A stretch of DNA of 64,000 nucleotides from Fragilariopsis cylindrus CCMP1102 (lineage: Eukaryota > Bacillariophyta > Bacillariophyceae > Bacillariales > Bacillariaceae): assembly GCA_900095095.1 (NCBI GenBank), contig FMBT01000427.1, positions 54,173 through 118,172 on the forward strand, written 5' to 3'. Position 1 is the first letter of the stretch; each line of letters begins with the position of its first letter. The position numbers and the translations under genes were made by a program. The notes beneath the pieces were generated by a model. The model saw only the letters and a list, made by a program, of their open reading frames with translations. It was not told the origin of the DNA and did no database searches. Shown here one piece after another: positions 10,059 through 61,346 of the stretch.

Positions 10059-12157
10059 ATGGTCGTTTCTTCGCTAAGACGCTGATCGCAACGATCAGCC
10101 TAGCAGGTTCCACCTCCGCCAAGCCAAGAATGAGGCATGGTGCGACGGGAATGATTATGAAGAAAAAGAAGATATGTACTTCGACTACATTGTGACAGGC
10201 GCCGGTCCTGGTGGAGGAGTGGTGGCATCTCGTCTCGTTGAGGCTGGCTTCAAGACTCTTCTTCTTGATGCGGGCCCCGACTACGATACTTATGTAACCC
10301 AGACTCCGCTTGCATGGCCCTTGTCGACCATTGATCCGAAAATCGAGTGGGCAGTGCGCACCAAGAACTCGGATGTTGAGGGCCGAGATAATGTCTTGTA
10401 CCCGAGAGCTGCCATGATTGGAGGATGTGGCCTGCATAACGCCATGCAAGCTTGTTACAGCTACCCGGACACGTGGGATAACCTCAAGAATATGACTGGT
10501 GACACGGAATTTGGGGAGGAAAAGATGCGTGCTCGCTTCATGGCCATCGAAAAGAACGAATACGTTTCGGATTCAACTCCAGGACACGGCTTTGACGGTT
10601 TCATGGCCACGAGCCTTGCCGACACGAGGCTGCTAACGGATGCTCCTTTCCAAGATGACAAGCTAGACTACGTCTTCGGGTCTATTGCTGGCAAGTACCC
10701 ATCTGAGGATCCCGAATTTGCTGTCAGTCCGGAGTTGCCGATCATTGCGGATATCAACAGCCTGGGAGCGAATTCGGTTCAGGGGACTCACATTTTGCCA
10801 AGTAAGTCACTGATGGGCTATGTACAATGTACTCCCGAAAAACACAGGATGAAAACAGTAAACTATAAACTAACAATTTGTACCTTCCCTATTCGATATT
10901 CACAGCTCGATCACCGCAAAGGGAAGAAAGAGATCCGGTGTCTACGACCTCATCAAAGATACGCAAGCTGCCTATCCGGACAAGTTCATCATCAAACCAT
11001 ACTCGCATGTAAAGAAAGTTCTCCTCACAAAGGATGGAAAGGGTGACAAGCCAGTCGCGTATGGTGTCGAGGTGCAGGAAGGGAAAAATCTCTACGAGGC
11101 CTCTACCGGGACAAAGGAGAAGGGCGAGCAGAAGACCTACTATGCCCGCAAGGAACTCATTGTTTCTGGAGGTACCTTCCAGACTCCACAAATCCTCATG
11201 TTGAGTGGCATTGGCCCCAAACAGCAACTCGAGTCATTCGACATTCCAGTCATGGCCGACGTTCCTGGTGTGGGATCAAATTTGCGCGACAAACTTGAAG
11301 CTACTATGAACTTTCGAATGACCAGCATTTGGGGGATCTACAAGGCGGGCTGCTCCTTCTTCATGCCCACACCCGAAGAAGACCAGTGCTATGTCGACTA
11401 TGCCGAGGGCGACTTTACGGACGCGCCCAATCTCTATACCAGTGCTGGACCCTTTTTCAGCACACAGGTCAAGAGTTCTCCCGACCTTGCGTCACCAGAC
11501 TTGTACATGACTGTGGCCCCTCTCTACTTCCAGGGGTATCGTGATGGCTGGGTCGATCAAGCCTTTTCGAGACCGGATTTCTTGACCCTCAACACTCTAA
11601 CGGAGCCTCTCAATAGTGGCGCGGTCAAACTCAAATCGGCCGATCCTTTTGATAGTGTCATGAGTGACTTTAATGGATACGATGATGCTGATTTGACACG
11701 TGTCGCCGGCTTTATTCAAGACCTGCGGGAACTTGGACTCGATTGGATTGACGCTAATGTAGCAGCGGAGGAAATACAGCCTGGCCCGAATGTAACCACG
11801 CTTGATGACATCAAGGACTGGATCTTGGAATATGGTTGGGGACATCACGCCTGTTGCACTGCCAAAATTGGTGCTGACGATGACGAAATGGCAGTTCTCG
11901 ATGGCCAATTCAAGGTTCGCGCTGTGGACTACTTGCGAGTCGTAGATCTCTCCGCCTTTCCGGTCGACTCAGGCTTCTTTCCTATGGTTCCTCTCTACAT
12001 GCTTGCCGAGAATTTGGCCGAGGACATTATCAAGGCGGATCTAACGATATCTCCAAAGGACATGGGTTGTAAGAGTAAAGCAAAGAAGACTAAGAAGACC
12101 AAGAAGACCAAGAAGAGTAAAGCAAAGAAGACTAAGAAGTCCAAGCTTATAATTTAG
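10059..12157 (+). CDS. Secreted GMC (glucose-methanol-choline) FAD oxidoreductase
   Basis: The core reads FDYIVTGAGPGGGVVASRLV at the start of the FAD domain (GxGxxG), then LLLDAG, MIGGCGLHNAM, a substrate domain, and a C-terminal WGHHACCTAKIG...VRAVDYLRVVDLS block holding the active-site His of the family. The tail is a Lys/Thr/Ser-rich repeat (KKTKKTKK) seen in secreted diatom proteins. Upstream of 10174 a signal-peptide-like stretch (FFAKTLIATISLAG) follows the ATG at 10059 but needs one extra base near 10062 and another near 10131 to run through. An intron joins 10801-10805 to 10906; the best donor (GTAAGT, 10802) is off by one base from the frame, so the exact site is unsure. Codons are markedly more G/C-ending than in neighbours. 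The enzyme would oxidise alcohols or sugars outside the cell, giving H2O2 or a reduced acceptor. Confidence 0.82.
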
Positions 12158-21628: not shown

Positions 21629-23356
21629 TTAGCGGAGTACCCTCCAGACAAAGCCGATGGAATGAAGCTGATCAAGGCGTTCTTCTGATAGTTCGTTCTT
21701 CTTGAAAAGTTGTCGCTGGTTACTAACCCATAGACCGAGTGAGGGATCTTCATCATATTGATTTGGAACCAAAGTATGTTTGTGTGCCTTCTCATACTCA
21801 ACAAGTTTTTGAAACATCTTCATCCACTTCCCTCCTTTGGCTCTTGCCCTTGCCCATTCAAAGTCAATCGAATTCAAAAGGTCGAGACGATTGGAAGGCA
21901 TATCATCATTTCTGTAATGATAACGTTGTTTGTAAACCCAACTTCCTAATTTGGAATCTTCATCATAATGTTGCGGTACCATCGTATGTTTATGTATCTC
22001 CTTATAGGCAACAAGTCTTTGAAACATATCATCCCATTTTTCATTATTATTTCTTTGAACTCCTTTCCATGCAAAGTCAATCGAATTCAAAAGGTCGAGT
22101 CGATTGGAAGGCATATCATCATTTCTGTATTTACCACGTTGTCTACAAACCCAAGTTCCGAGTGGGGGATCTTCTTTGTAATAATGCGGTACCATCGTAT
22201 GTTTATGTATCTCCTTATAGGCAACAAGTCTTTGAAAAGCTTTTTCCCAATTTGTATCATTCAAGCTCTCGTTATCAATTCGTCTTCTCTTTCCTCTTAC
22301 TACTGGTGACTTTGAATCTTTATTTTGATTGCTATCAGTGCTGTCTTCAGGAAGAGATTCATCTTCATCGTTTACATCGTCGTCATCTTGGTAATCATCG
22401 ATGTCGATGTTGCTGTCATCAGTGTCATCGCAGCATTCGTCATCTTCACTTTGATCCTGAGTACGTTTTCGATTTGTAGAACCATTACCTTTGCTGTTTT
22501 CTTTGTCCTTCTTCGCCGCACTCTCTGATTGACTAACTGTCTGGCTTTTGTGATAATCGTCGTCGTTATTGCTACTGCTATTGATGTTATTACCGTTATA
22601 TAACACCCAAACACTATCACGTGGTTCTGTCTTGATCTTTTGTACCCCTTCATTTATTCTAGCATTATTTTTGTTACTATTTTCGTTGTTGGTTTTGCCT
22701 TCGTCGTTACCGACGTCGTCGTCTGCCTTCGTTGCTGTTGTATCATCATGCCCTGCGATATTAGTAGTAGTGACAGCGACAGTGACAGCGTCCTCACCGT
22801 TGGTGTTGTTGTTGTTGTTGTTGTTGTTGTAGAAATCATGGTAGCTTTTAGCCATGATGTCGGCGACAGTAGTAGTAGTAGTAGTAGTCGATAATAAGGT
22901 ATCATTATTATTGACGACAGGCAGGGCGACAGTAGTGCTGGACGCAGCAGCAACAGCAACAGCAGCAGTAGCACCAGTAGCACCAGTAGCAGCACCAAAA
23001 CCAGAAGTATCATCATACGTATTTGTATTTGTATTCGGCAACAACACGCTGGTAGTAGTAGTAGAAGAAACATAATTATTAATAGTTTCCATCGCTTCTG
23101 CCATTACTTTTCGTAATAATTCATCACCATCGTCAACATCAACATCAACATCAACATCAACGGCGTTATTATTATCGCTACTCCTACTAGTAATAGTACT
23201 ACTCATGACTGATATCGGTTTAATTTCATCATCGTTGAAACTGTTAACCTCCGCCATAACCTTTCGTAACAATTCTTCACCGTCATCAGCAACGTCGATG
23301 CTATTATTGTTCATAACGTAGTTATTATCACTACTAGTACTAGTAGTAGCCATCAT
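21629..23356 (-). CDS. Protein with three helicase-associated (HA) domains
   Basis: A 575-residue frame from ATG 23356. The first 60 residues contain two copies of a (G/D)ELLRKVMAE motif, once as EELLRKVMAEVNSF and once as DELLRKVMAEAMET, encoded by a duplicated segment. A disordered Asn/Thr/Val-rich region and an acidic/basic linker follow. The last 190 residues are three tandem HA domains, each about 60-65 residues: W...F..L..YK..HKHT.VP..Y.ED..LG.WV..QR..Y, with the third diverged (FQKLVEYEKAHKHTLVPNQY). HA domains are thought to bind nucleic acid and are hugely expanded in diatoms, usually without a helicase core, as here. The repeats share near-identical DNA, so they arose by recent internal duplication. 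A nuclear DNA- or RNA-binding role is inference. Confidence 0.85.
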   Translation of the reverse strand: MMATTSTSSDNNYVMNNNSIDVADDGEELLRKVMAEVNSFNDDEIKPISVMSSTITSRSSDNNNAVDVDVDVDVDDGDELLRKVMAEAMETINNYVSSTTTTSVLLPNTNTNTYDDTSGFGAATGATGATAAVAVAAASSTTVALPVVNNNDTLLSTTTTTTTVADIMAKSYHDFYNNNNNNNNTNGEDAVTVAVTTTNIAGHDDTTATKADDDVGNDEGKTNNENSNKNNARINEGVQKIKTEPRDSVWVLYNGNNINSSSNNDDDYHKSQTVSQSESAAKKDKENSKGNGSTNRKRTQDQSEDDECCDDTDDSNIDIDDYQDDDDVNDEDESLPEDSTDSNQNKDSKSPVVRGKRRRIDNESLNDTNWEKAFQRLVAYKEIHKHTMVPHYYKEDPPLGTWVCRQRGKYRNDDMPSNRLDLLNSIDFAWKGVQRNNNEKWDDMFQRLVAYKEIHKHTMVPQHYDEDSKLGSWVYKQRYHYRNDDMPSNRLDLLNSIDFEWARARAKGGKWMKMFQKLVEYEKAHKHTLVPNQYDEDPSLGLWVSNQRQLFKKNELSEERLDQLHSIGFVWRVLR

Positions 23357-33574: not shown

Positions 33575-35641
33575 TCAACTCAATGGAGGTCGTTGGTACC
33601 CACCATTAAGCTCAGCAATATAACCGGCTAACTTAGTAGTTGTATAATCACCCCCGTAAGGTCCAACCGCTTGAAAACTAACAGGTAGACCATCTTCCGT
33701 TAAGCCAATTGGTGGTACCGTAGAAGGAAGATAGGACATACCTACGAAAATTGTCCATTGACCCCACTCATCCATGTCCGTATCAACCTTGTTACTATGA
33801 AGAGGCGGTTGAAATGGATAGACTGGCACAATAATGGCATCGTAATCATTAAAAAATTCCGCCCACTTTGTTCGTACAGCATTTCGATTAAAATTGTTCC
33901 AGGCCCAATCCGCATACGTAGAATTATATGGGTGGTTCAAGTCAAAACCCCAACTATAGATCTCTTCTAGAGAAATAGGATCAAAATTAGGACGTGCACT
34001 TCGATCAACTGACACCCCTGATTTTTCCAAATTTGAAACTGCAGTATCTAAGACCACGCGAACTTTACTTTCGACTGGATAAGATTTAATAGTCCCGTCT
34101 AGCCAAACTGCGACTTTTAATGATTTGATGTCATCTGGCGGTTCGGGAAGTGTTACGGGCAAAGGAGCTGTGCTCATCATCAAATCGAGCAACATCTTCA
34201 AGTCCTCTGCTGATCGAGCTAGGGGTCCAGACGAGCTAATATCATCGAATACATCAGAGATAACTTCATCTCCGTAAAGTGTTATACCTCCTGTACCTAC
34301 GAAACCCAAATTAGGTACAATATTGTAGGTTGGTTTATGACCAAAAATACCACAATAGGATGCCGGTTGGCGGATCGACCCTCCCTTATCCGTACCAATT
34401 TCGAAAGAACTCATTCCGGTTGAAACTGCTACTGCTGCGCCACCAGAACTGCCACCCGGAGTACGTGTTACATCCCAGGGGTTTGAAGTAATTCCGAATA
34501 CCTCATTGTTTGTTTGATCACAGCATCCATTTTTGGCCGTATTCGACTTCCCGAGGAGGATCGCTCCCGCATCTTTCATGGCCTTCACGACGGGTGCATC
34601 ATACCTACCAATATAATCTATCCTTTCGATGTCACCAGCGGTAGAAAGAATCCCTTCCGTTTCTAGAAAATCTTTGACCGTGAAAGGAATTCCATGCAAC
34701 TGACCTACGACTGCTCCTGCTGCAATTTGTTCATCTGCAACGTCTGCAGCTAATCTTGCCCCCTCCAAATCGAGGGTGACAATGGCATTCACTATGGGAT
34801 TGATAGCATCAATCTGCTCGATCATCAACTCTAATAAATCCCTGCTTGTGAAGATACCTTCCCGAATGGCACGAGCCTGTTGAGTTGTAGACAAGAACAA
34901 GATATTTTTGCTGATATCACCGTTGTAGTCGTTGTCGTCGTAGCTGCTACTACCGCTACTACTAAGTTGAGGCAACAATAGGTGGTCAACACCATGAATT
35001 ATCCCGTCGCAAACCGCAATGTCGGGTGCAACGATGCGGGGTACTGTGCCTACTTCGAGATTGCCCCTGCCGGTTTGGTACTTTTCGTTGCCTTGGCACT
35101 TGGTACGCGAATCTTCTTCGGACGCCATTTCTAATAAACCAGTGCAGATCAATTCGTCAACCGTGATTGCTTTCCCTTTTATGAGGTGAAATTGGATGAT
35201 GTTGTCTACTACTAGGCCGATGTCATCGAATTGACTGTCATCAAAAGCAGCATCGTTAGGTGCAAAGAGTGTCCATTTGCTGGATAAGTCGTCGTCATCG
35301 TCGTAGCTGGATAATAAGTCGTCGTCGTCGTACATAACGCTGCAAAGAGTAGAATAATCGCTATCGGAACAGATATAGTCCACTGTTATTATCGTATGTA
35401 TGGAATACGGTACGGGGTTGAAAAGAATTCATTATTGTTAGATGTGTTTTTAAAATTGTGCTTCGTAGCACAAACAGATCATGTCTAAAAACAAGACACA
35501 GTAGTCCAATACAATTTATACCATGATGTATTGTTACTCACTCATTGATAGGCAATCATCGCTAATGTCTACTGCTCGTATTGTCCCAAAACTAATCATG
35601 GCCAAGGTTGCGACACTAAAATATCGACTATTGAAGATCAT
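33575..35641 (-). CDS. Secreted fasciclin (FAS1)-amidase fusion
   Basis: Exon 1 (35641-35542) starts with ATG and encodes a signal peptide (RYFSVATLAMISFGTIRA). A GTGAGT donor and an AACAG acceptor at 35383 define a 159-bp intron that keeps phase. The mature protein starts CSDSDYSTLCSVM and KWTLFAPNDAAFDD, the first FAS1 box, and IIHGVDHLLLP, the second. After a Ser/Asp linker an amidase-signature (AS) enzyme follows: GIPFTVKD (Lys of the triad), GGSSGGAAVAVSTG, and GTDKGGSIRQPASYCGIFGHKP (cis-Ser and nucleophile Ser). The total is about 635 residues. FAS1 domains mediate adhesion; AS enzymes hydrolyse amides. A wall- or matrix-bound amidase, perhaps releasing nitrogen from extracellular amides, is inference. 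All catalytic residues appear present. Confidence 0.85.
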
Positions 35642-39849: not shown

Positions 39850-41527
39850 TCAAAATAATCCTTTTGATTCGTTACACATTTGACAACGTTTATTTTGGAG
39901 GAAATCGTTTTTGAATGTACAACGTCCACAAGACCATTTATTATCGTTATTACTATTAGTATTAATAGTATTCGATGGTTGATTATGCTTGTCATGTGAA
40001 GTGGCGGTGGTAGTGGCGGTGGTGGTTCGTGAAATATTGATATCATTATAGGTCATTGTTGCTGTTGCTGTTGCTGTTGTTGTAAGGTCAATAACATCAT
40101 TATTATCTACTTTACGTCGTGCTTTTTTTGATTTTGTTGTTACGACGGCTATCGTCTTTCTTTTCCTTTTCACTTTTATCATTATTATCATTATCATTTT
40201 CATCGATGGTGACAATTGATCGTTGTTTCTTATCTTTCGTCTGTTGTGTACGAGTCTTGCGGTTGGCATTGATTTCTTGTTTACCACTACTACTGATGCT
40301 GCTGCTGCTGCTGCTACGATTTTCTTTCGTATTTGAATTATGAGATGGTTTTTTCTTTTCATCGTTATTGTTATTATCATCCTCGTCACCATCGTCAACA
40401 ATAATAATAATCTTATCATTCTTGTTATCATTATTTCCAGTTTCGTTCTTCTTCTTCTCGCCTTTATTTTCATATTTTTCTTCCCTATCATCTTTATATT
40501 TATCTTCATCATCTTTATCTTCATCGTCAGTATCACTATCATCGCACAAATCAATGACGCATGGTTCCTTTGATCGTTCAATCATCTTTCGTATGTGTGC
40601 CATTTGACGTTTCCGTGCTTCTGCTGCTTTGACAATCCGTTGTCGTAATTGATCTCGAGTCAAACCACCAGTAACAGTAGCAACAGTATTAGTAGTAGTA
40701 TTTCCCCCTAACTTATATCCCCCACTTAATTCATTGACCAGACGACTACGATTCTTACTATTATTACCTGTACTACTACTACTGATTCCTCGACCTAGCT
40801 TATGCCCACCACTTTCTGGCATTGATGATGATGATGATGATGATGATGATGTTATATTGCCGCCACCGCTACTACTACCGCTGTTATGTGTGCCATAAAT
40901 TATTTGATTCTGAAAATGTTCATCAAGTATTTCTTCCATTAATTTAAAAAAGTTTTTATCATGATTCTGATGGATACAATGTGCCATCTCGTGTGCCATC
41001 GTCCCGGCAACGTCTTCCCAGGATAAGAATCGTGTATGTGTGCACGGATCTCGTAATCGTAAATGTATTCGTGAGGATGATGATGAGGAACATGATGATG
41101 ACTGTCGTTGTCGGCCACGAGTTGTTGTGGTGATTGAATTGTATCCCCAAACATTGTTTCCCATTAGACGACTACCTATCAGTCCATCAGTACAACAACA
41201 CATTTCACTTATTGATTTAATAGTATACTTTCTTCTTTGAATAATTGGAAGAAATTCTTGATGTAGTCGTTGTAATGTTGCATCACAAACATCCTGTTGT
41301 ACTAATCCAGAAATTGAGAATAATAAAGGAATGGCCACGGTAGGTGGAGGCGTTGATGATTTATTCCCAACCGCCTGACAATATTCATTATTAGTACTAC
41401 TATCACTATTATTCTTTCGACTGCTACTGCTAATGATGCTGTTGTTGTTGCTGTTGTTTGACGGTCTACTTCTTTTATTTTGTGTTCCACGACCTCCTGG
41501 AGTTTCGCGATAATACAAATGAGCCAT
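39850..41527 (-). CDS. Wss1/SPRTN-like SUMO-linked metalloprotease (WLM domain), one frame break
   Basis: From ATG 41527: a Ser/Asn-rich start, then a WLM domain with the zinc protease motif HEMAHCIHQNH (HExxHxxxxxH) inside a TMAHEMAHCIHQNHDKNFF segment, and earlier IPLLFSISGL and LRLRDP. A linker with CVIDLCDDSD, a SUMO-interaction-type motif, is followed by a long Lys/Glu/Asp/Asn region. A second such motif (DVIDLTT) and a RanBP2-type zinc finger (WSCGRCTFKND...CQMC) end the protein. The last part is in a shifted frame; dropping one A from the A7 run near 40127-40133 joins them. Yeast Wss1 has the same order (WLM, SIMs) and cleaves DNA-protein crosslinks; a nuclear DNA-repair role is inferred. 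The gene's 5' end is duplicated just upstream. Confidence 0.82.
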
Positions 41528-50738: not shown

Positions 50739-53736
50739 ATGGACGAACAAGAAGAGACCCAAGTGAAGACAAGCAACAACAATGTTGTGGACATGGAGGA
50801 AGATAACGAAACAACGGAGAACGATGTCTTAATGGTCGATATCAAAGCAAAGAAATACGACGCTGTCGACATTGTCAAGTTATTAGACTTGCTCAAAGCC
50901 AGCAAGAAAGCTGGTGATTTGATCGCTGAGAAACATGTGATGCTTCTTATTGGATTGACAGGTGCAGGGAAGGTAAGCCGAGTACAATATCATGAAATAC
51001 GAGTAGGGTTATAAGAGGAGTGAGTCGTCGTTGCAAACACAAAACATTATTATAACGAAGCTTACCGTTGCCGCCTTTTATGTATCTTCTTTTTGTTCTT
51101 TAATAGACGACCAGTACTTTGTATCTAGCTGGTGCAAAATTTGTAGAGGAATACGTTGGTGGATTTTCACACTACAAACCAATCGAGTTACCAAGTGAGG
51201 TTCTAGCTGAGTTTGCTGTGAGCGGTGGTGCTCGCTCTGTGACGACGACTATACAAGCTACTACCATTCCGTTGGAGAATGACTTCGTCACTATTTGCGA
51301 TACACCTGGATTTGGTGATACTAAGGGACATGAGCGCGAGATAAGCAATGGTCTTGGGATTATCCATGCACTAAAAGGTGCTGCCTCAATCAAGCCGTAA
51401 GTTTTTTCGTTCTATATATAGTTATACGTATGGAGGAAATAGGAACGAAACGACTTTTCTTCTTCCTGACTATTCTCCTCCCACATAATTCTCTCTCTCT
51501 CTCTCTTTATCTCTTGGTCCAACAAAACAACAAATTATTTCCTAGTGTTATTGTCATCGATCACAGCACCATGCATGCAAATCGATTTGATCCTCTACGA
51601 AAGAATTTATCAACTGTAATTGCTATGATGGGATGTGAACCTATTGATTTTTCATCATTTGCATACATCTTCACACGATGCGAAGGAAAGGCTTTCAAGC
51701 GGATTACAGAACAGTTGTCGTTCTACCAGAAGGAAGTCAGGGATGATCCGACATTAGAAAACAAGGATATTTTAGATGCGTTACTGTCTGATATGATCTC
51801 AAAGACAAAGCCAGAGGACGTGATTTGTATTGATCCCGAAGAGCCCGATAATGCACCTGACACTCTAAAGCGTCTTTGGCGAGGCTCGAGAATCGAAAAC
51901 CCTGGAAACAGTTTTGTCAACTTCTGCTCGAAAGAATCAATGGCTGCTTTATCTACACAAGTCAACATCTTGATTCAGGATGTCGAAAAATCTCTCAAGA
52001 TATCTGATCTTGATTCAGCACAAGAGTCCCTCCGTAAAATGACCAAAATGGCGAAAGCACTATCCTTATCCAACGTTGAAAATGCTGTTGATCATGGGAT
52101 AACAAAAGTAAAAGACTTTGTGAACCAATTAACTTCTGATATTGAAAACTTGGTGACTTCCGATTTTGAGCAGAATATGAGCGGTATGTCATCGAAGCTA
52201 CATCTGCTCTTTAAGTCAGAAGGAATCCGAAACATCTGTGGAATAGATTTCAATTATAGTGCTTTTATCAAGGACATCACTAGAAGACTTTTGTCGATCG
52301 TCGAGCAACCGATCGCTGATATCCTCCCTACTTTTTTAGGAAGCGAAGATGTCCTACAACGTGCAATAACTCGATTTGCTTTAATCGCTAAAGCATTTCA
52401 AGATATTATTGACAACGAGACTATAGAGACTGGGCACTCAATCATGATAAAGGCAACGAATAATGTAATGAATCCTATCATGGATGTTCTCGGGAACTCT
52501 TTAAATATCAGCGATCCTAAATCAACTACTTTAACTGAGTGCCTCCCTAAAGTCAATCTCGTTCTTGCCATGAGCATATTCTTTCATTCGTCTAAATTTG
52601 CTTCTCTCAACCTGGGACTTTCCAAGTGGACTTCGTCGTTTGAAACTGAGTTGAAGAATATTCTTCAAAATATCAACGATATAAGTCAAACCTGCGTTAC
52701 ACATCTCGAAGAATTGGATAAAGCTCTACATGAAGAGCTTCTGGGAGACGTAGATTGGTCCTATTCTTCTATCTTGAAGTTAAAGGATATTGCCGAGAAA
52801 AAAGAAGCTAGGGCTTTCCTTCAAGCTGTGTTGTCCTCTGATTCTCTTGCTACTTCTACCGAAAATAACACTACTCTGAACTTGAAGTTATCTATCAGCG
52901 ATTTCGATGATGCTGTCAGAAAATATGTACCTAACCTCGTCTTCTTTCTCCAGAACGAATCTCAAGCCGTCTTTGACAATGAAGTAGGAGAGATGAATGT
53001 TCGCGTCGACATAGCAAAGAAAGTTATCGGCTCCGTTGATTCTGTTCTTAGCATCGTCGACAGTATTAAGAATCTGGATGATATCATTTTCCAGAAGGCT
53101 TCGGAAGATATGATTGGCATGAAAGGCCGGTTGAAACAATTCATCGAGGAATCGAAGAAGAATCCTATTCGACGGCGTTTTGTTCAGGGAACGAAACTAG
53201 AGCCCTCAGAAAAAGAACTCTCCCAAACAAAAGATAAGCGAGCCTTGCAACGATGGTATGAGAAATGTAATGAGTTGAGAGTCTATCGGATGAAAAATAA
53301 CCATTGTAACGTACCACATAAAGACCCAAAACTTGGACTTGTAAGTATATTGATAGTGTGTGATTTATTTTGTATCTACACAAACCGACAAATTTACTAA
53401 CTTGTTATTATCTTTCAGTGGGTGATGACCCAACGTTTCGAGAAGAAAAAGTATGAAGCAGGATCAAAGACCGCAATGACTAATGAAAAGTTACAGCATT
53501 TATCTGGTATGGATTTTCAATGGAGCGTTTTGAAGGAGCGCAATAATGCTATGTGGGACCAGCGATTCGGAGAGTTGAAGAAGTTTAGGGATGAACATGG
53601 CCACTGCCGTGTACCTCAAAGAACACGGAAGTTAGGCAAATGGGTAATGCATCAGAGAAACAATAAAAGTACACGCGTCGCCAGAAGTGAGGAGCAAATT
53701 GCCAAGCTGGAGGCAATTGGTTTCTTCGACTCTTAA
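50739..53736 (+). CDS. P-loop GTPase fused to two helicase-associated (HA) domains
   Basis: Four exons (50739-50972, 51107-51396, 51546-53340, 53419-53736) with GT-AG introns, all in phase, give 878 residues. An acidic N-terminus precedes a G domain: P-loop LIGLTGAGKTTSTLYLAG split by intron 1, a Thr-rich switch (RSVTTTIQATTI), G3 as TICDTPGFGDTKG, a VIVIDHSTM strand, and FAYIFTRCEGK as a probable degenerate G4 (TRCE instead of NKxD). This set resembles AIG1/GIMAP-like or dynamin-like GTPases. A helical region of about 450 residues rich in Leu/Ile follows, then two HA domains (RALQRWYEKCNELRVYR...HCNVPHKDPKLGLWV and MWDQRFGELKKFRDEHGHCR...KLGKWVMHQR). HA modules bind nucleic acid. A GTP-driven, nucleic-acid-associated assembly is inference. 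Confidence 0.85.
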
Positions 53737-54269: not shown

Positions 54270-56390
54270 TTAATTTGACAGAGGCGTAATAGGGATTTTA
54301 ACGACATACTTTTCATCGTGCTGGAGCGTGCTGGTAGTAGTTGCGGTTGCCTTAAAACGATTGCATCTTTCCATTAAATCTTGTCTTTCTAATGTCGTAC
54401 AGGGGTGGGGTTTCCACCGGCCCATACCTTGTCTTTGTTGAATCTTATTCGATGAACTTTTATCGGAACCAGGAGGCCAGACACAATCATATTTTTCTGC
54501 AATTTTTTCCATTTCCTTACTTGCCTTCTCATCTGACGCAATAATATTTACATTCAAATTATGCATCACACCATAGAAGCCACAAAGTGAATGCTCAACT
54601 GTCTCTAGATCATAAATCCGACCATTGGCACGATCTGCCCACGATTTATCCAATTTTGTTCGTATCAATGCATCCTGGAACTTATTGCGTATTATAACTG
54701 CTCTTGGGATCGTTGATAATTGGGATACATTTTGTTTGAGGTTGGCAAGTAGATCCGATCCACCTCCAAAAATAATATACGCACCCTTACGTGCACCCGG
54801 TCCAAACAAACCATAATTGAATCTTGAATTATCAACGACCGATGATGGGAGGATTGTATTATCAGGAAACAATTGACAGTAGTATTGCACACAAACAAGA
54901 TCACTAAAGATCTGCCAAGCAAAGAAGTCTGCTACCATGGGCCTAGAATAAAGAAAGATGGGATTTGACTTAGAACTATAACAAGTCACAATACGAATAA
55001 TGCGCTTAAAGAACTAAAAATAAATAACAACAAAGTCACAAACGACCACACTTACAGTTCCTTAAACTCGTCCAGTACTACTTTGACATTATCCGTTCCC
55101 ATAACAACTTTACTCATATATTTAAGTTGAGAACAATTATTGGCTGCTAACTTTTTGAGCACAGACATAATTGTTTCATATGGCTGGACTTGATGTTCCC
55201 CTGTCATTACGCCACGACCCATAGTAAGTTTTTCCCAGTCTGTAAATTTCTTAAAATCATTCAACTCCGATGGAAGTGGAATTTGTGATATACAACACAT
55301 CGGCGATTCCGATTCCATTTGTTTGATACAAAAATCTTTCCCCCATTTGTCACGGTACCCCATACGACCAAGAAGGGTAACGCCAGAGGCAGCAATATCA
55401 TGTAGGTCTTCATTACGGTTGGTTCCCTCATTATCATCACCATGTATTGCAGTTTCATACAAACCCTTATCGATAAGTTCTGAAATAGATTTCCCCTCAT
55501 CTTTGGATAGTTTTTTGATTGCAGCCCAACGAGAGAAGGTACTGAGACGATTTATTGTTCTGTATGTAATAGCCCCCCATAAAGCAGCCTCAGCTGGAGT
55601 AAGTCGATCCTTAGTAGTAGAGGCTCGTTCCGTCAAATCTTGCACCATCCGTGCATAACCAATCGAACCACGATCATCACATCGCCAAAGAGCAGCAGTA
55701 CTACCCACAATATTATAGGGTGGTCCTCGTCCATCCTTAAATCGTCGAACAGATCCAAGTAACATCCGATAATTGTAGACACAAAATTCATCCATCCAAT
55801 CCTCGAATGACATGGAATATGGTACAAAGTTGTCGTCGTTGTTTTTCGTCGTCGTCGAAATTGAGTTTGAATTTGTTGCTGTTGTTGTTGAAGTTGAATC
55901 GAAACGAGATTCAATTAAACCAGGATATCCATGTGTACTTTCCGATCTTTCCCTCCACCATTTTGGTGTTTCTTTTTCATTGAGATTTTTTTGTGGTTGT
56001 GCTCTCATAGCACAACAAACATGATTATACCCAACGGGTATCTTTTCGGTACTACAATCTTTACGTTTAAGTAAAATTGGTATAAATTGATCATAACCGA
56101 ACTCACATTTCATTTGTTGTCGACCATGTGCAATACACATAATGCACTCTCTTGGTGGTGGTGACGACGATGATGGTCTTTTTGTTATTCCTTTAGCTAC
56201 TTTCTTTATCTTCTTCTTCTTCCTTGCTGCATTTGATGATGCCATCGTTATTATCATCGTCCCATCGGTTGTTCCTGTAGATGATGATGAGGATGATGAC
56301 GATGCTACTACTGTTGGAGCGAATGAAACAGGAAATTTGTTATAATCACGTTCCCAACACCAATTCCCTTGCCCCCAATCATCGAAGAAA

Positions 56391-56423
<33 letters not shown>

Positions 56424-56779
56424 TCGGGATCCGGTTTAATTTTGAGATCAGCTTTCGGCTGATATTGTTCCTTTTTACCTGATTGATTGAAAGGTTGCAA
56501 ATCGCGAATCATACGACTGACATTATTGTTTTTGTTGTTGCAGTTGTCATTGTTGTTGTTGTCGTCAGGATCCGATTTAATTTGGACATCAACTTTCGGC
56601 TTTTTGTTCCTCGACGACGACGACGACGACGACGACGACGGCGTTAATCTCTCAACCTTCCCTTCAATCTCATTGATGTATCGTTTGGGTGCAGATCGTT
56701 GTCGACGTGTTCTACGTGTACCTCCAGAAGCACCATACGGTACGTCGTGATTCTGCTGTATCTCCATTGCCATTACCAT
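54270..56779 (-). CDS. Putative DNA thymine-hypermodification family protein (HMUDK/aGPT-pyrophosphorylase-like fold)
   Basis: Exons 56779-55056 and 54942-54270 (GTAAGTG donor, TTCTAG acceptor, 113-bp intron) give 798 residues. Residues 1-190 are disordered and basic (GTRRTRRQRSAPKRYI) with short KSDPD/KPDPD motifs. A Cys-rich patch follows (CIMCIAH, MKCEF, CCAMRAQP), possibly zinc binding. The main domain, about residues 327-640, runs MDEFCVYNYRMLLGSVRRFKD, LWRCDDRGSIGYARMV, ALWGAITYRTINRLSTFSRW, PMVADFFAWQIFSDLV and NYGLFGPGARKGAYIIFGG. This order (R..G basic helix, F/W..(R)xDD+xT/S, YR..N...TF, GxFxAxQ..xDL, GPGA++G) is that of the helical domain in 5-hmdU DNA kinases and alpha-glutamyl/putrescinyl-thymine pyrophosphorylases. 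A role in base modification or reading is inferred; no kinase P-loop is present. Confidence 0.6.
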
Positions 56780-58973: not shown

Positions 58974-60895
58974 TTAGTTCTTTGTTAACGACGATATCGA
59001 TGCAATGGAATCTTTGGTCAATGGAAAAATACCAGCATTCGTCAACGCTTGTCGTGTGTAATAACAAATCGGATGTCGACTGGTTACCATCGGCATCGTC
59101 GCGCTACAATTAGTATTGCTATCTATGCTATTGCTGTTGTTGTTGACATTATCATTATTAGAAAAAGTACACTCCCAACCACTTGGATAGTCAAGGTTTT
59201 TCTTATTGCTGTTGCTATTATTACCGCCATCGAAAGTTGTTTTTGTTTCTTTCGGTACTACAGTTTCCATTTTTAGACATAATTCTATAACATCATTAGG
59301 CACATCAATATCGTGCATCACGCGACCTATTTGTGTTTGTATATTTTGATCTGTTAATGTTTTTATTTGTGATATTGCTGTTAATGGATGTGACCAATAC
59401 ATATTTTGTGTTGATAAAAATGTTTTTGATGGATCAGCATTTGGTGGTACACACAACATAACATACCCACCATCATATGCAGGACATAATGTTGCTACCG
59501 GTTGTTGTGGTTGTGATGAGGATGATGTATACGATGATGATGCTTTTCTTAATCCCACTACTATATCATTTAATGGTAAAATTGGTGCATCCATTCCTAA
59601 AAATACAACACCATACTTATTGGTATTCCTTTGTTTTTGTTTTTGTTCCTGTGATTGTTGTAATAGACGTACTTGTATCAATGCATCTTCTAATTTAGCA
59701 CCTAAATCATGAGATTTCAAATCATCGACGTTATCAATAATACTACTACTACTACTACCGTTACTATTACTGCTGGATGACGATGATGGTGATGATGACG
59801 ATGACAACATCGGAAGTAAATGCCATCCATTGCTATGATATTGACGTTCATAATATGTGAAATCAAGTTCATCAAGTATTCCCTTCATCGTTTCAAGGCC
59901 TTCTGCATTACCGGGTGCATATAGAAGGACCTTCCGAACATTATCTAATTCCGACTATTCAATAAATAAATACCGGTAATGGTATTCCGGAAAAAGAATG
60001 ATGTAAGACAAAAGATTAGGAAAACTCCATGAGAAAGAAAGGTCAGAACAAGCAAGCCTGCGTATTGCATTCGTTTCATAACACAACACAACACAACACA
60101 GCACAGCACAGCACAGCACAACACAGCACAACACAACACAGCACAGCACAGCACAGCACAGCACAACGGCACGTACAAATACGTTACATACAGTCCTGTA
60201 TAAAATTCTATATCACTTACACATCCATCGATAGTTTTAAGAACATCCGATAGCATACTTTTTGCTAATAAGACAGAACCTTGTTCCCCTAATAATGGGA
60301 TCAATCGTGTTTTACTTTTTCCAGCAGAAGGACATTTTGCAACAACGACAATAGTCCCATAAACACCGCCACTATCACTATTATCACCATCGTTATTATT
60401 CCCATCGTCGATCATCGCAGTATTTTTCACAGTAGTCGCAGTCCCCGTTATTGAAACACCACAAACAGGTCTAATATCTGGAGCATCCTCCCGGAGTGCT
60501 TGTCCAGTCTTTTTGATAGCACTTGCATCACCAATATCAAACCACAATCCTACCCCTGCTCCTACTCTGTCTTCCTTCAAGAATCGTCCTGGTGGGTCCA
60601 TCATGGTACGTATATCATGGACGATACTAGCGGCAATATGAGCCTTTTCCAGTTTCTTGGTGGATAAATTTAGATATTGTTTCTTCTTTGCTTGGATGAT
60701 ATATCGAAATTGTACATTCCCAGCATGATTATTGATCCGTCCACCCCGACCACAGAGAACATCATTCTTATTTGGTTCAGGGATTGGACCAATCCCACGA
60801 GGTGGAACATGAAAAATAGGTCGAGGTTTTGCTGTTGATTTTCTAACTACCACCGATGCTTGCGCTGCTACGGCGTTGTTGTTGTTGTTGTCCAT
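58974..60895 (-). CDS. DUF6824 domain fused to a DUF2064-type nucleotidyl/glycosyltransferase
   Basis: Exons 60895-60221 and 59954-58974, intron of 266 bp (GTAAGTG, GAATAG) in phase 0; 551 residues. Residues about 38-135 form the DUF6824 domain found mostly in diatoms: PNKNDVLCGRGGRINNHAGN and a helical ASIVHDIRTM, ending GLWFDIGDASAIKKTGQALR. From about 165 a second domain begins GTIVVVAKCPSAGKSKTRLIPL, then YYERQY, VVFLGMDAPILPL and CPAYDGGYVMLC with a WSHPLTA ending. These are the motifs of the DUF2064/TIGR04282 family (GT-A-like fold, P..GK.KTRL, GxDxP, DGGY). The first domain may bind DNA; the second suggests transferase activity. The intron carries a CACAA/CACAG repeat. Substrate unknown. 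Confidence 0.8.
60057..60166 (-). repeat. CACAA/CACAG pentanucleotide array inside an intron
   Basis: About 19 units of ACACA/GCACA between 60080 and 60165, within the intron of the 58974-60895 gene. It is a variable-length microsatellite, with no coding role although open in several frames. Confidence 0.9.
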
Positions 60896-60923
60896 TTTCT
60901 TTCTTTTCTGTAATTTTACTGTC

Positions 60924-60967
<44 letters not shown>

Positions 60968-61346
60968 CTTCAACAATAATCTATCAAGGCAAATCTTCTT
61001 CTCTTTCTCTCTTTCGTGAAATAAAATGTACTTCTACCAAGCTCCTAGATAGTAAGTTACGGTATGTCGATCGTGTATTGTCAATTTATTTTGTTTTTTA
61101 GAAGTGTTCGCTTTTTGACTCACTCGTGATTAAAATATCGTAATTCGTATCACAATGATTTTGAAGCATGATCCACAAACAAAATCCTTCACAGTTCGCC
61201 GCCACATACATAATTTCCGTGTGTTATGTTCAGAAACATGCCATATCTTGAATCTAGCTCCCATATCCATCCATACTTCTAATACTCGTACTCGTATCTA
61301 ATAATTAATTGCATCCAATCCAATTTCAAATCTCAGCAATCATAAC
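60896..61346. other. Upstream region with CT-repeat leader
   Basis: A CT dinucleotide array (60925-60964) lies just 5' of the 60895 start, in the 5' leader as a GA run on the mRNA. The rest holds nothing recognised. Confidence 0.6.

Follow-up and report, generated by a model that had tools for sequence, protein, structure and literature searches.

The closest described systems to the gene treated here are the helical proteins of the 5-hydroxymethyldeoxyuridine (5-hmdU) pathway known as HMUDK_hel (PF18723; phrog_2396), which occur in the phages ViI, M6, phiW-14 and PaMx11 and are annotated in one phage record as alpha-glutamyl/putrescinyl thymine pyrophosphorylase clade 1. The gene lies in a window of 64,000 nucleotides (the whole stretch of DNA that was analysed; contig FMBT01000427.1, positions 54,173 to 118,172) of the diatom Fragilariopsis cylindrus CCMP1102. 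It consists of two exons on the minus strand (56779-55056 and 54942-54270) with a product of 798 residues. Residues 331-706 very probably form a divergent relative of HMUDK_hel at the superfamily level, and we tentatively regard the C-terminal half of the protein as a DNA-base-binding or base-reading module of a nuclear chromatin protein rather than as an enzyme of the phage-type 5-hmdU pathway.

The family phrog_2396 comprises the HMUDK_hel proteins of the phages ViI, M6 and phiW-14, which possess hypermodified thymines (PMC6449724). The diatom protein resembles HMUDK_hel in the order of its elements, in the F..D motif, the GPG loop and the E..LC helix and possibly, by alignment, in the R..D and R..N motifs. 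It differs by CGFYG in place of the CExxK motif, by the lack of a clear counterpart to the F-x-N motif and by about 80 extra residues, and furthermore by its N-terminal basic and Cys-containing region, its intron and the absence of a kinase neighbour as far as seen in the window.

Similarity of the domain to HMUDK_hel

The domain is encoded by both exons:

55056..55789, minus strand: part of the HMUDK_hel-like domain in exon 1 (residues 331-574), assigned largely from the order of motifs and the multiple alignments
54549..54942, minus strand: part of the HMUDK_hel-like domain in exon 2 (residues 575-706), which bears the significant match

With about 375 residues it is longer than the roughly 310 residues of the preliminary description, as additional residues separate the YRTIN motif from TGEH.

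The relatives used for comparison were viral or scattered in prokaryotes, the collections searched containing no eukaryotes. The viral relatives comprised 80 of the 328 loci found in viral contigs; their set of 83 viral open reading frames (ORFs) was reduced to 82 by dropping L010 (minus strand) and to 55 by clustering. The prokaryote genomes contributed 45 loci, of which 41 were left after the removal of four fragments, giving an alignment of 96 relatives (55 viral, 41 from genomes).

The joined domain matched the Pfam model HMUDK_hel with an E-value of 0.016 and 15 bits, which is under the curated cut-off of 25 bits, and phrog_2396 with an E-value of 9e-5. The profile built from the 55 viral sequences assigned 25.6 bits to the diatom domain, whereas 2000 shuffled versions of its residues reached 4.2 bits at most. 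In hhalign the domain reached a probability of 94.5% against the 96-sequence alignment, while none of 30 shuffles exceeded 1.0%. The family call of the preliminary description (HMUDK_hel / phrog_2396) and its motif order are borne out. We do not, however, count the protein among HMUDK_hel in the strict sense, because the score stays below the Pfam cut-off and the CExxK motif is altered.

The significant matches are confined to residues ~524-698, with the profile matches starting at ~524-534. The N-terminal half of the domain, including WRCDDR and the YRTIN stretch, attained 0.6 bits at best, which is not significant; this half was assigned by motif order and multiple alignments. Neither exon alone had a Pfam match up to an E-value of 1, and the whole protein matched a low-complexity Pfam model by chance and no other; the HMMER filters used in the Pfam scan discard most matches above an E-value of about 0.1.

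The identity to the relatives amounts to 15-23% in alignments of the whole domain and reaches 26% at most in the part encoded by exon 2. According to blastp the nearest of the 96 relatives were a Woesearchaeota protein (L129), with an E-value of 3.8e-5 in this small set, and the protein of the viral contig L037; the best match among the 83 viral proteins had an E-value of 1.6e-4. A single-sequence phmmer search with the domain found 0 of these 83 proteins. No close relatives were detected in the viral contigs or prokaryote genomes searched, and tblastn with the domain found nothing in 50,697 phage records. In the PDB the domain sequence matched filamin-B alone (E-value 1.3) and the viral family profile had no match. 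NCBIfam contained no match for the domain and one phage protein, nor did PADLOC for the domain and two relatives.

The families which a viral relative resembles in its predicted fold (see below) were not recognised by sequence. The domain showed no match to the amino-acid:DNA transferases ADDT (PF18724), such as PUGT gp46 of phage PaMx11 (PDB 8z2m, 8z2n), either by hhalign (0.2%) or in the Pfam scan. QNG1/DUF2419 (Q_salvage, PF10343) was likewise absent from the Pfam scan of the protein, as were the HhH-GPD models within the filter limit given above. The possibility that the gene represents the QNG1 of the diatom was rejected, as a separate Q_salvage gene is present elsewhere in the genome.

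The evidence on the fold derives from the predicted structure of the viral relative L037, which was used as a stand-in for the diatom domain. The model is confident (pTM 0.86). Its structural matches, which have middling scores, include the phage DNA glycinyltransferase PUGT, QNG1 and DNA glycosylases, and it shares its overall helical arrangement with HhH-GPD DNA glycosylases such as OGG1, EndoIII, MutY and AlkA. Of the best 50 Foldseek rows 46 were DNA glycosylases by title, two were PUGT and two QNG1; unrelated proteins are also found among the matches. The exon-2 half of the diatom protein modelled alone (pLDDT 59, pTM 0.52) was too low in confidence for a structure search. Judged by the stand-in, the fold of the diatom domain would be all-helical and belong to the base-flipping HhH-GPD type.

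Family residues retained and altered

The motifs quoted in the preliminary description, namely LWRCDDRGSIGY, YRTINRLSTF, FFAWQIFSDL and GPGARKG, are all present on the minus strand between 54270 and 56779 and in that order. The following elements of the domain were compared with the 96 relatives:

55670..55687, minus strand: WRCDDR (residues 365-370), with R366 and D369 aligned to an Arg (96/96) and an Asp (96/96)
55220..55507, minus strand: stretch with about 80 residues more than in the relatives (approximately residues 425-520), its extent depending on the alignment
54891..54941, minus strand: helix-hairpin-helix-like segment PMVADFFAWQIFSDLVC with the conserved F581 (96/96) and D589 (96/96)
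54783..54803, minus strand: GPGARKG loop (residues 622-628; G 96/96, P 95/96, G 96/96, last G 90/96)
54570..54599, minus strand: VEHSLCGFYG (residues 690-699), with C695 kept and CGFYG at the position of the family motif CExxK

The hairpin reading of PMVADFFAWQIFSDLVC is taken from the predicted fold of the viral relative. Among the columns that are invariant or nearly so in the 96 relatives are R, D, F, D, G, P, G, C, E and K. The diatom protein retains F581, D589, G622-P623-G624, G628 and C695, and by alignment also R366, D369, R407 and N410 in the N-terminal half, where no significant local score was obtained. Glu691 of the E..LC motif was found in 8/8 sequences of a MAFFT alignment; it is not among the columns conserved in at least 85% of the 96 relatives.

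One departure from the family concerns the CExxK motif. Its Cys, Glu and Lys are each present in 96/96 relatives, whereas Glu and Lys are replaced by Gly696 and Gly699 in the diatom protein. The invariance in the genome set arises partly by construction, as these sequences were fetched partly with a CExxK pattern; the viral set, in which Glu and Lys occur in 55/55 sequences, was fetched without it, using an F-C-N pattern. The F-x-N motif preceding the Arg (95/96 for each residue, partly by construction since one search pattern contained it) falls into an alignment gap and has no clear diatom counterpart.

The alignment of the N-terminal half is partly a matter of judgement. The pairing of R407 and N410 with the R..N motif (R 92/96, N 88/96) agrees in the viral-profile, the 96-relative and the MAFFT alignments. 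R366 and D369 are paired in the first two, while MAFFT pairs residues 344-349 (VRRFKD; positions 346 and 349) instead. We prefer WRCDDR as its spacing to R407 is nearer to that of the family. The first invariant Arg of the family (96/96) corresponds to R338 in a manual alignment and to an Asn in the automatic alignment of the 96 relatives. The extra residues are located between the R407/N410 motif and TGEH, and their number depends on whether TGEH is equated with the TGAY found in the relatives.

The preliminary description had named a loss of the DD, R and GPGA positions as evidence against its family call. GPG is retained, and R366 and D369 align with the family in the viral-profile and 96-relative alignments, though not with MAFFT, whereas the first Asp of the pair falls into an unconserved column, so that the DD pair as a unit was discarded as a conserved element.

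Gene structure, N-terminal region and selection

The location given in the preliminary description, 54270-56779, proved correct. The reading frame, however, is not unbroken, as an intron of 113 bp places FFAWQIFSDL and GPGARKG in the second exon:

55056..56779, minus strand: exon 1, with ATG at 56779, encoding residues 1-574 and two bases of codon 575 in an open frame directly followed by the donor GTAAGT
54943..55055, minus strand: intron of 113 bp (GTAAGT...TTCTAG, GT..AG), predicted from the sequence
54270..54942, minus strand: exon 2, encoding residues 575-798 and the stop

In the genome (67.9 Mb, 818 contigs) the gene is single-copy apart from a second contig (C650). This contig aligns collinearly to ~9.3 kb of the window with an identity of 92-93% and has the appearance of the alternative haplotype. 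Silicon-transporter genes matched 27 stretches of the genome (best E-value 1.1e-226), which confirms the diatom named in the preliminary description. Both splice sites are conserved on C650 and the two copies are identical at the CExxK positions. Within the domain (384 codons) the copies differ by 27 synonymous and 15 non-synonymous changes, corresponding to a dS of 0.115, a dN of 0.017 and a ratio of 0.147; the complete coding sequence gives 0.170 (784 codons, gapped codons excluded). Based on these two haplotype-like copies the gene is under purifying selection. The copy on C650 lacks one base in a run of A at codon 422; unless the assembly is in error here, this would be a null allele with a truncated product. 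The local G+C content is like that of the window.

The features noted in the preliminary description upstream of the domain, a basic head, a Cys patch (Cys 212, 215, 225, 242, 255 and 256) and KSDPD/KPDPD repeats at residues 67 and 114, were all recovered:

56159..56779, minus strand: basic head of low complexity (residues 1-207) that contains basic clusters at residues 59-62 and 186-193
56567..56581, minus strand: IKSDP (residues 67-71), first copy of a psi-K-x-D-P motif, SUMO-acceptor-like
56426..56440, minus strand: IKPDP (residues 114-118), second copy of the psi-K-x-D-P motif, SUMO-acceptor-like
56012..56146, minus strand: Cys/His patch (residues 212-256), with C212, C215, H218, C225, C242, H253, C255 and C256

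The head is rich in Ser and Asn, and its basic clusters resemble nuclear-import signals, which may indicate a nuclear location. The psi-K-x-D-P motifs resemble the SUMO acceptor consensus and may be SUMO acceptor sites; of 20000 shuffles of residues 1-330, 3 contained at least two [VI]Kx[DE]P motifs. The Cys/His patch is a possible zinc site. It has no Pfam match and, except on C650, no copy elsewhere in the genome at E <= 1.

Possible role and genomic context

Among the relatives, part of the loci have neighbouring genes of the thymine-modification pathway. A 5-hmdU-kinase-like gene was found at 41 of 125 relative loci, a thymidylate-synthase-like gene at 66 and either of them at 70, where the loci include near-duplicates and the flanks extended up to 1.5 kb (80 viral loci) or up to 5 kb (45 genome loci). 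In the viral locus L071 a 5-hmdU DNA kinase (PF18748, above cut-off) and an acetyltransferase are followed by HMUDK_hel and a thymidylate-synthase-like gene. Phage PaMx11 shows the order P-loop kinase-like gene (PF18748, below cut-off), HMUDK_hel and thymidylate synthase.

Two observations concern the prokaryotic loci. A Hyphomicrobium contig (L103) carries consecutively a gene of the uracil-DNA-glycosylase superfamily, the HMUDK_hel gene and a thymidylate-synthase-like gene, possibly a prokaryotic modification or defence set. Two loci of an Anaerolinea metagenome-assembled genome (L107, L108) are nearly letter-identical by eye to phage M6 upstream of HMUDK_hel and likely represent phage contamination. 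According to a 2026 study (PMC13092281), the domains of validated prokaryotic defence systems include 5-hydroxymethyluracil kinase and thymidylate synthase, while aGPT-Pplase is listed among predicted, non-validated defence domains.

For the diatom itself, exon-by-exon profile searches of the genome detected no match for the 5-hmdU kinase (PF18748, PF18747), ADDT (PF18724) or Tet_JBP (PF12851). These are weak negatives, since the PF18723 and phrog_2396 profiles missed even the present gene, presumably because the intron splits the domain; moreover, no control genome matched PF18747 or PF18724, and PF18748 and Tet_JBP each matched one control under the cut-off. A match of phrog_2396 on another contig (C678; E-value 0.12, 30 profile positions) was judged to be due to chance. 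In the window no kinase or thymidylate-synthase-like gene was seen by eye among 27 ORFs of at least 200 amino acids or detected in the 10 ORFs scanned.

The tentatively favoured role implies that the domain would still grip DNA and engage an everted pyrimidine base, either a modified thymine or another lesion or mark. Having lost both Glu and Lys of its C-terminal CExxK helix, it would work as a base-binding or reading module rather than as an enzyme of the phage-type pathway. The nuclear location, the base flipping, the loss of the original chemistry and the reader role are inferred. It is unlikely that the protein is instead an active enzyme acting on 5-hydroxymethyluracil (5hmU) supplied by an unseen oxygenase and helping to make hypermodified thymine as in phages. 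The homology to HMUDK_hel, the retention of several nearly invariant residues and the purifying selection would be compatible with such an activity, and 5hmU occurs in eukaryotes such as Leishmania via JBP enzymes (PMC5282726). The replacement of both CExxK residues by Gly argues against it, as do the weak genomic negatives for partner enzymes and a limited literature search that found no report of modified thymine in diatoms. The assignment of the preliminary description to the kinase or pyrophosphorylase enzymes which build hypermodified thymines could not be upheld, given the Pfam score, the two Gly residues, the lack of a clear F-x-N counterpart and the weak negatives for partner enzymes, while its alternative of a reader fits better than an enzyme role. 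An enzyme of DNA repair or nucleoside salvage with the same broad fold, i.e. an HhH-GPD glycosylase or a QNG1-like N-glycosylase, appears quite improbable: the structural neighbours of the viral stand-in include these groups, but the Pfam scan, within its filter limit, lacks a match to either model, Q_salvage is encoded by a separate gene, and GPG would occupy the position of the catalytic Asp in glycosylases.

With regard to its origin, the gene might have been acquired rather recently from a viral or bacterial source and have no settled role so far. The relatives found, in collections containing no eukaryotes, are viral or scattered in prokaryotes, which would fit this, as would the deletion on C650 unless it is an assembly error. 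However, the low identity to the relatives, the spliceosomal-type intron, the G+C content matching the window and the dN/dS of 0.15 point to an old, constrained host gene, and no close viral or prokaryotic relative was found in the searches, so that we regard a recent capture as very unlikely. Even less probable, to the point of being hardly credible, is a chance or convergent similarity between helical sequences. The Pfam score below the curated cut-off, the failure of phmmer, the best blastp E-value of 1.6e-4 and the lack of a significant score in the N-terminal half speak for it, but the margin over the shuffled sequences in both profile comparisons and the conserved motifs in their family order speak against it.

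The more far-reaching notion that the nuclear DNA of the diatom has an enzymatically placed non-canonical thymine derivative, with the protein as a dedicated writer or reader recruited from phage 5-hmdU machinery and tied to chromatin by its SUMO-like motifs and Cys/His patch, is doubtful; thymine hypermodification in the diatom is unproven. If the domain does engage a modified thymine, DNA base modification beyond 5-methylcytosine would be opened in a major marine algal group and the protein itself would be a ready-made probe for the modified base. If catalysis has been lost, a phage-type DNA-modification fold would have been turned into a chromatin module. Iyer et al. reportedly predicted in 2013 such systems in eukaryotes such as stramenopile algae. 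Therefore, the presence of the domain alone is no surprise.

Several other genes of the window were noted. The convergent neighbour (51430-53736, plus strand) ends in a helicase-associated HA domain (PF03457, E-value 8.3e-20), and an ORF at 21629-23356 with HA-like repeats by eye has an IKTEP motif resembling the SUMO-like motifs of the gene. A WLM-domain metalloprotease of the Wss1 kind (PF08325, E-value 8.6e-20) is encoded at 39850-41527 on the minus strand; such proteases are linked to the repair of DNA-protein crosslinks. A frame overlapping it ends in a stretch which resembles a RanBP2-like zinc finger by eye, with no Pfam match at an E-value of 0.001. The region 10174-12157 (plus strand) comprises two ORFs, the second of which matches a GMC oxidoreductase (PF05199/PF00732), and lies within a stretch with a G+C content of 50% compared to ~38% around it; a horizontally acquired gene and an intron or a frame break are possible. 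A Fasciclin domain and an amidase are combined within a single ORF at 33575-35383 (minus strand). Finally, the ORF at 59945-60976 (minus strand) comprises a DUF6824 domain (PF20710, E-value 5.6e-28) and a stretch which by eye resembles the start of a DUF2064-type glycosyltransferase.
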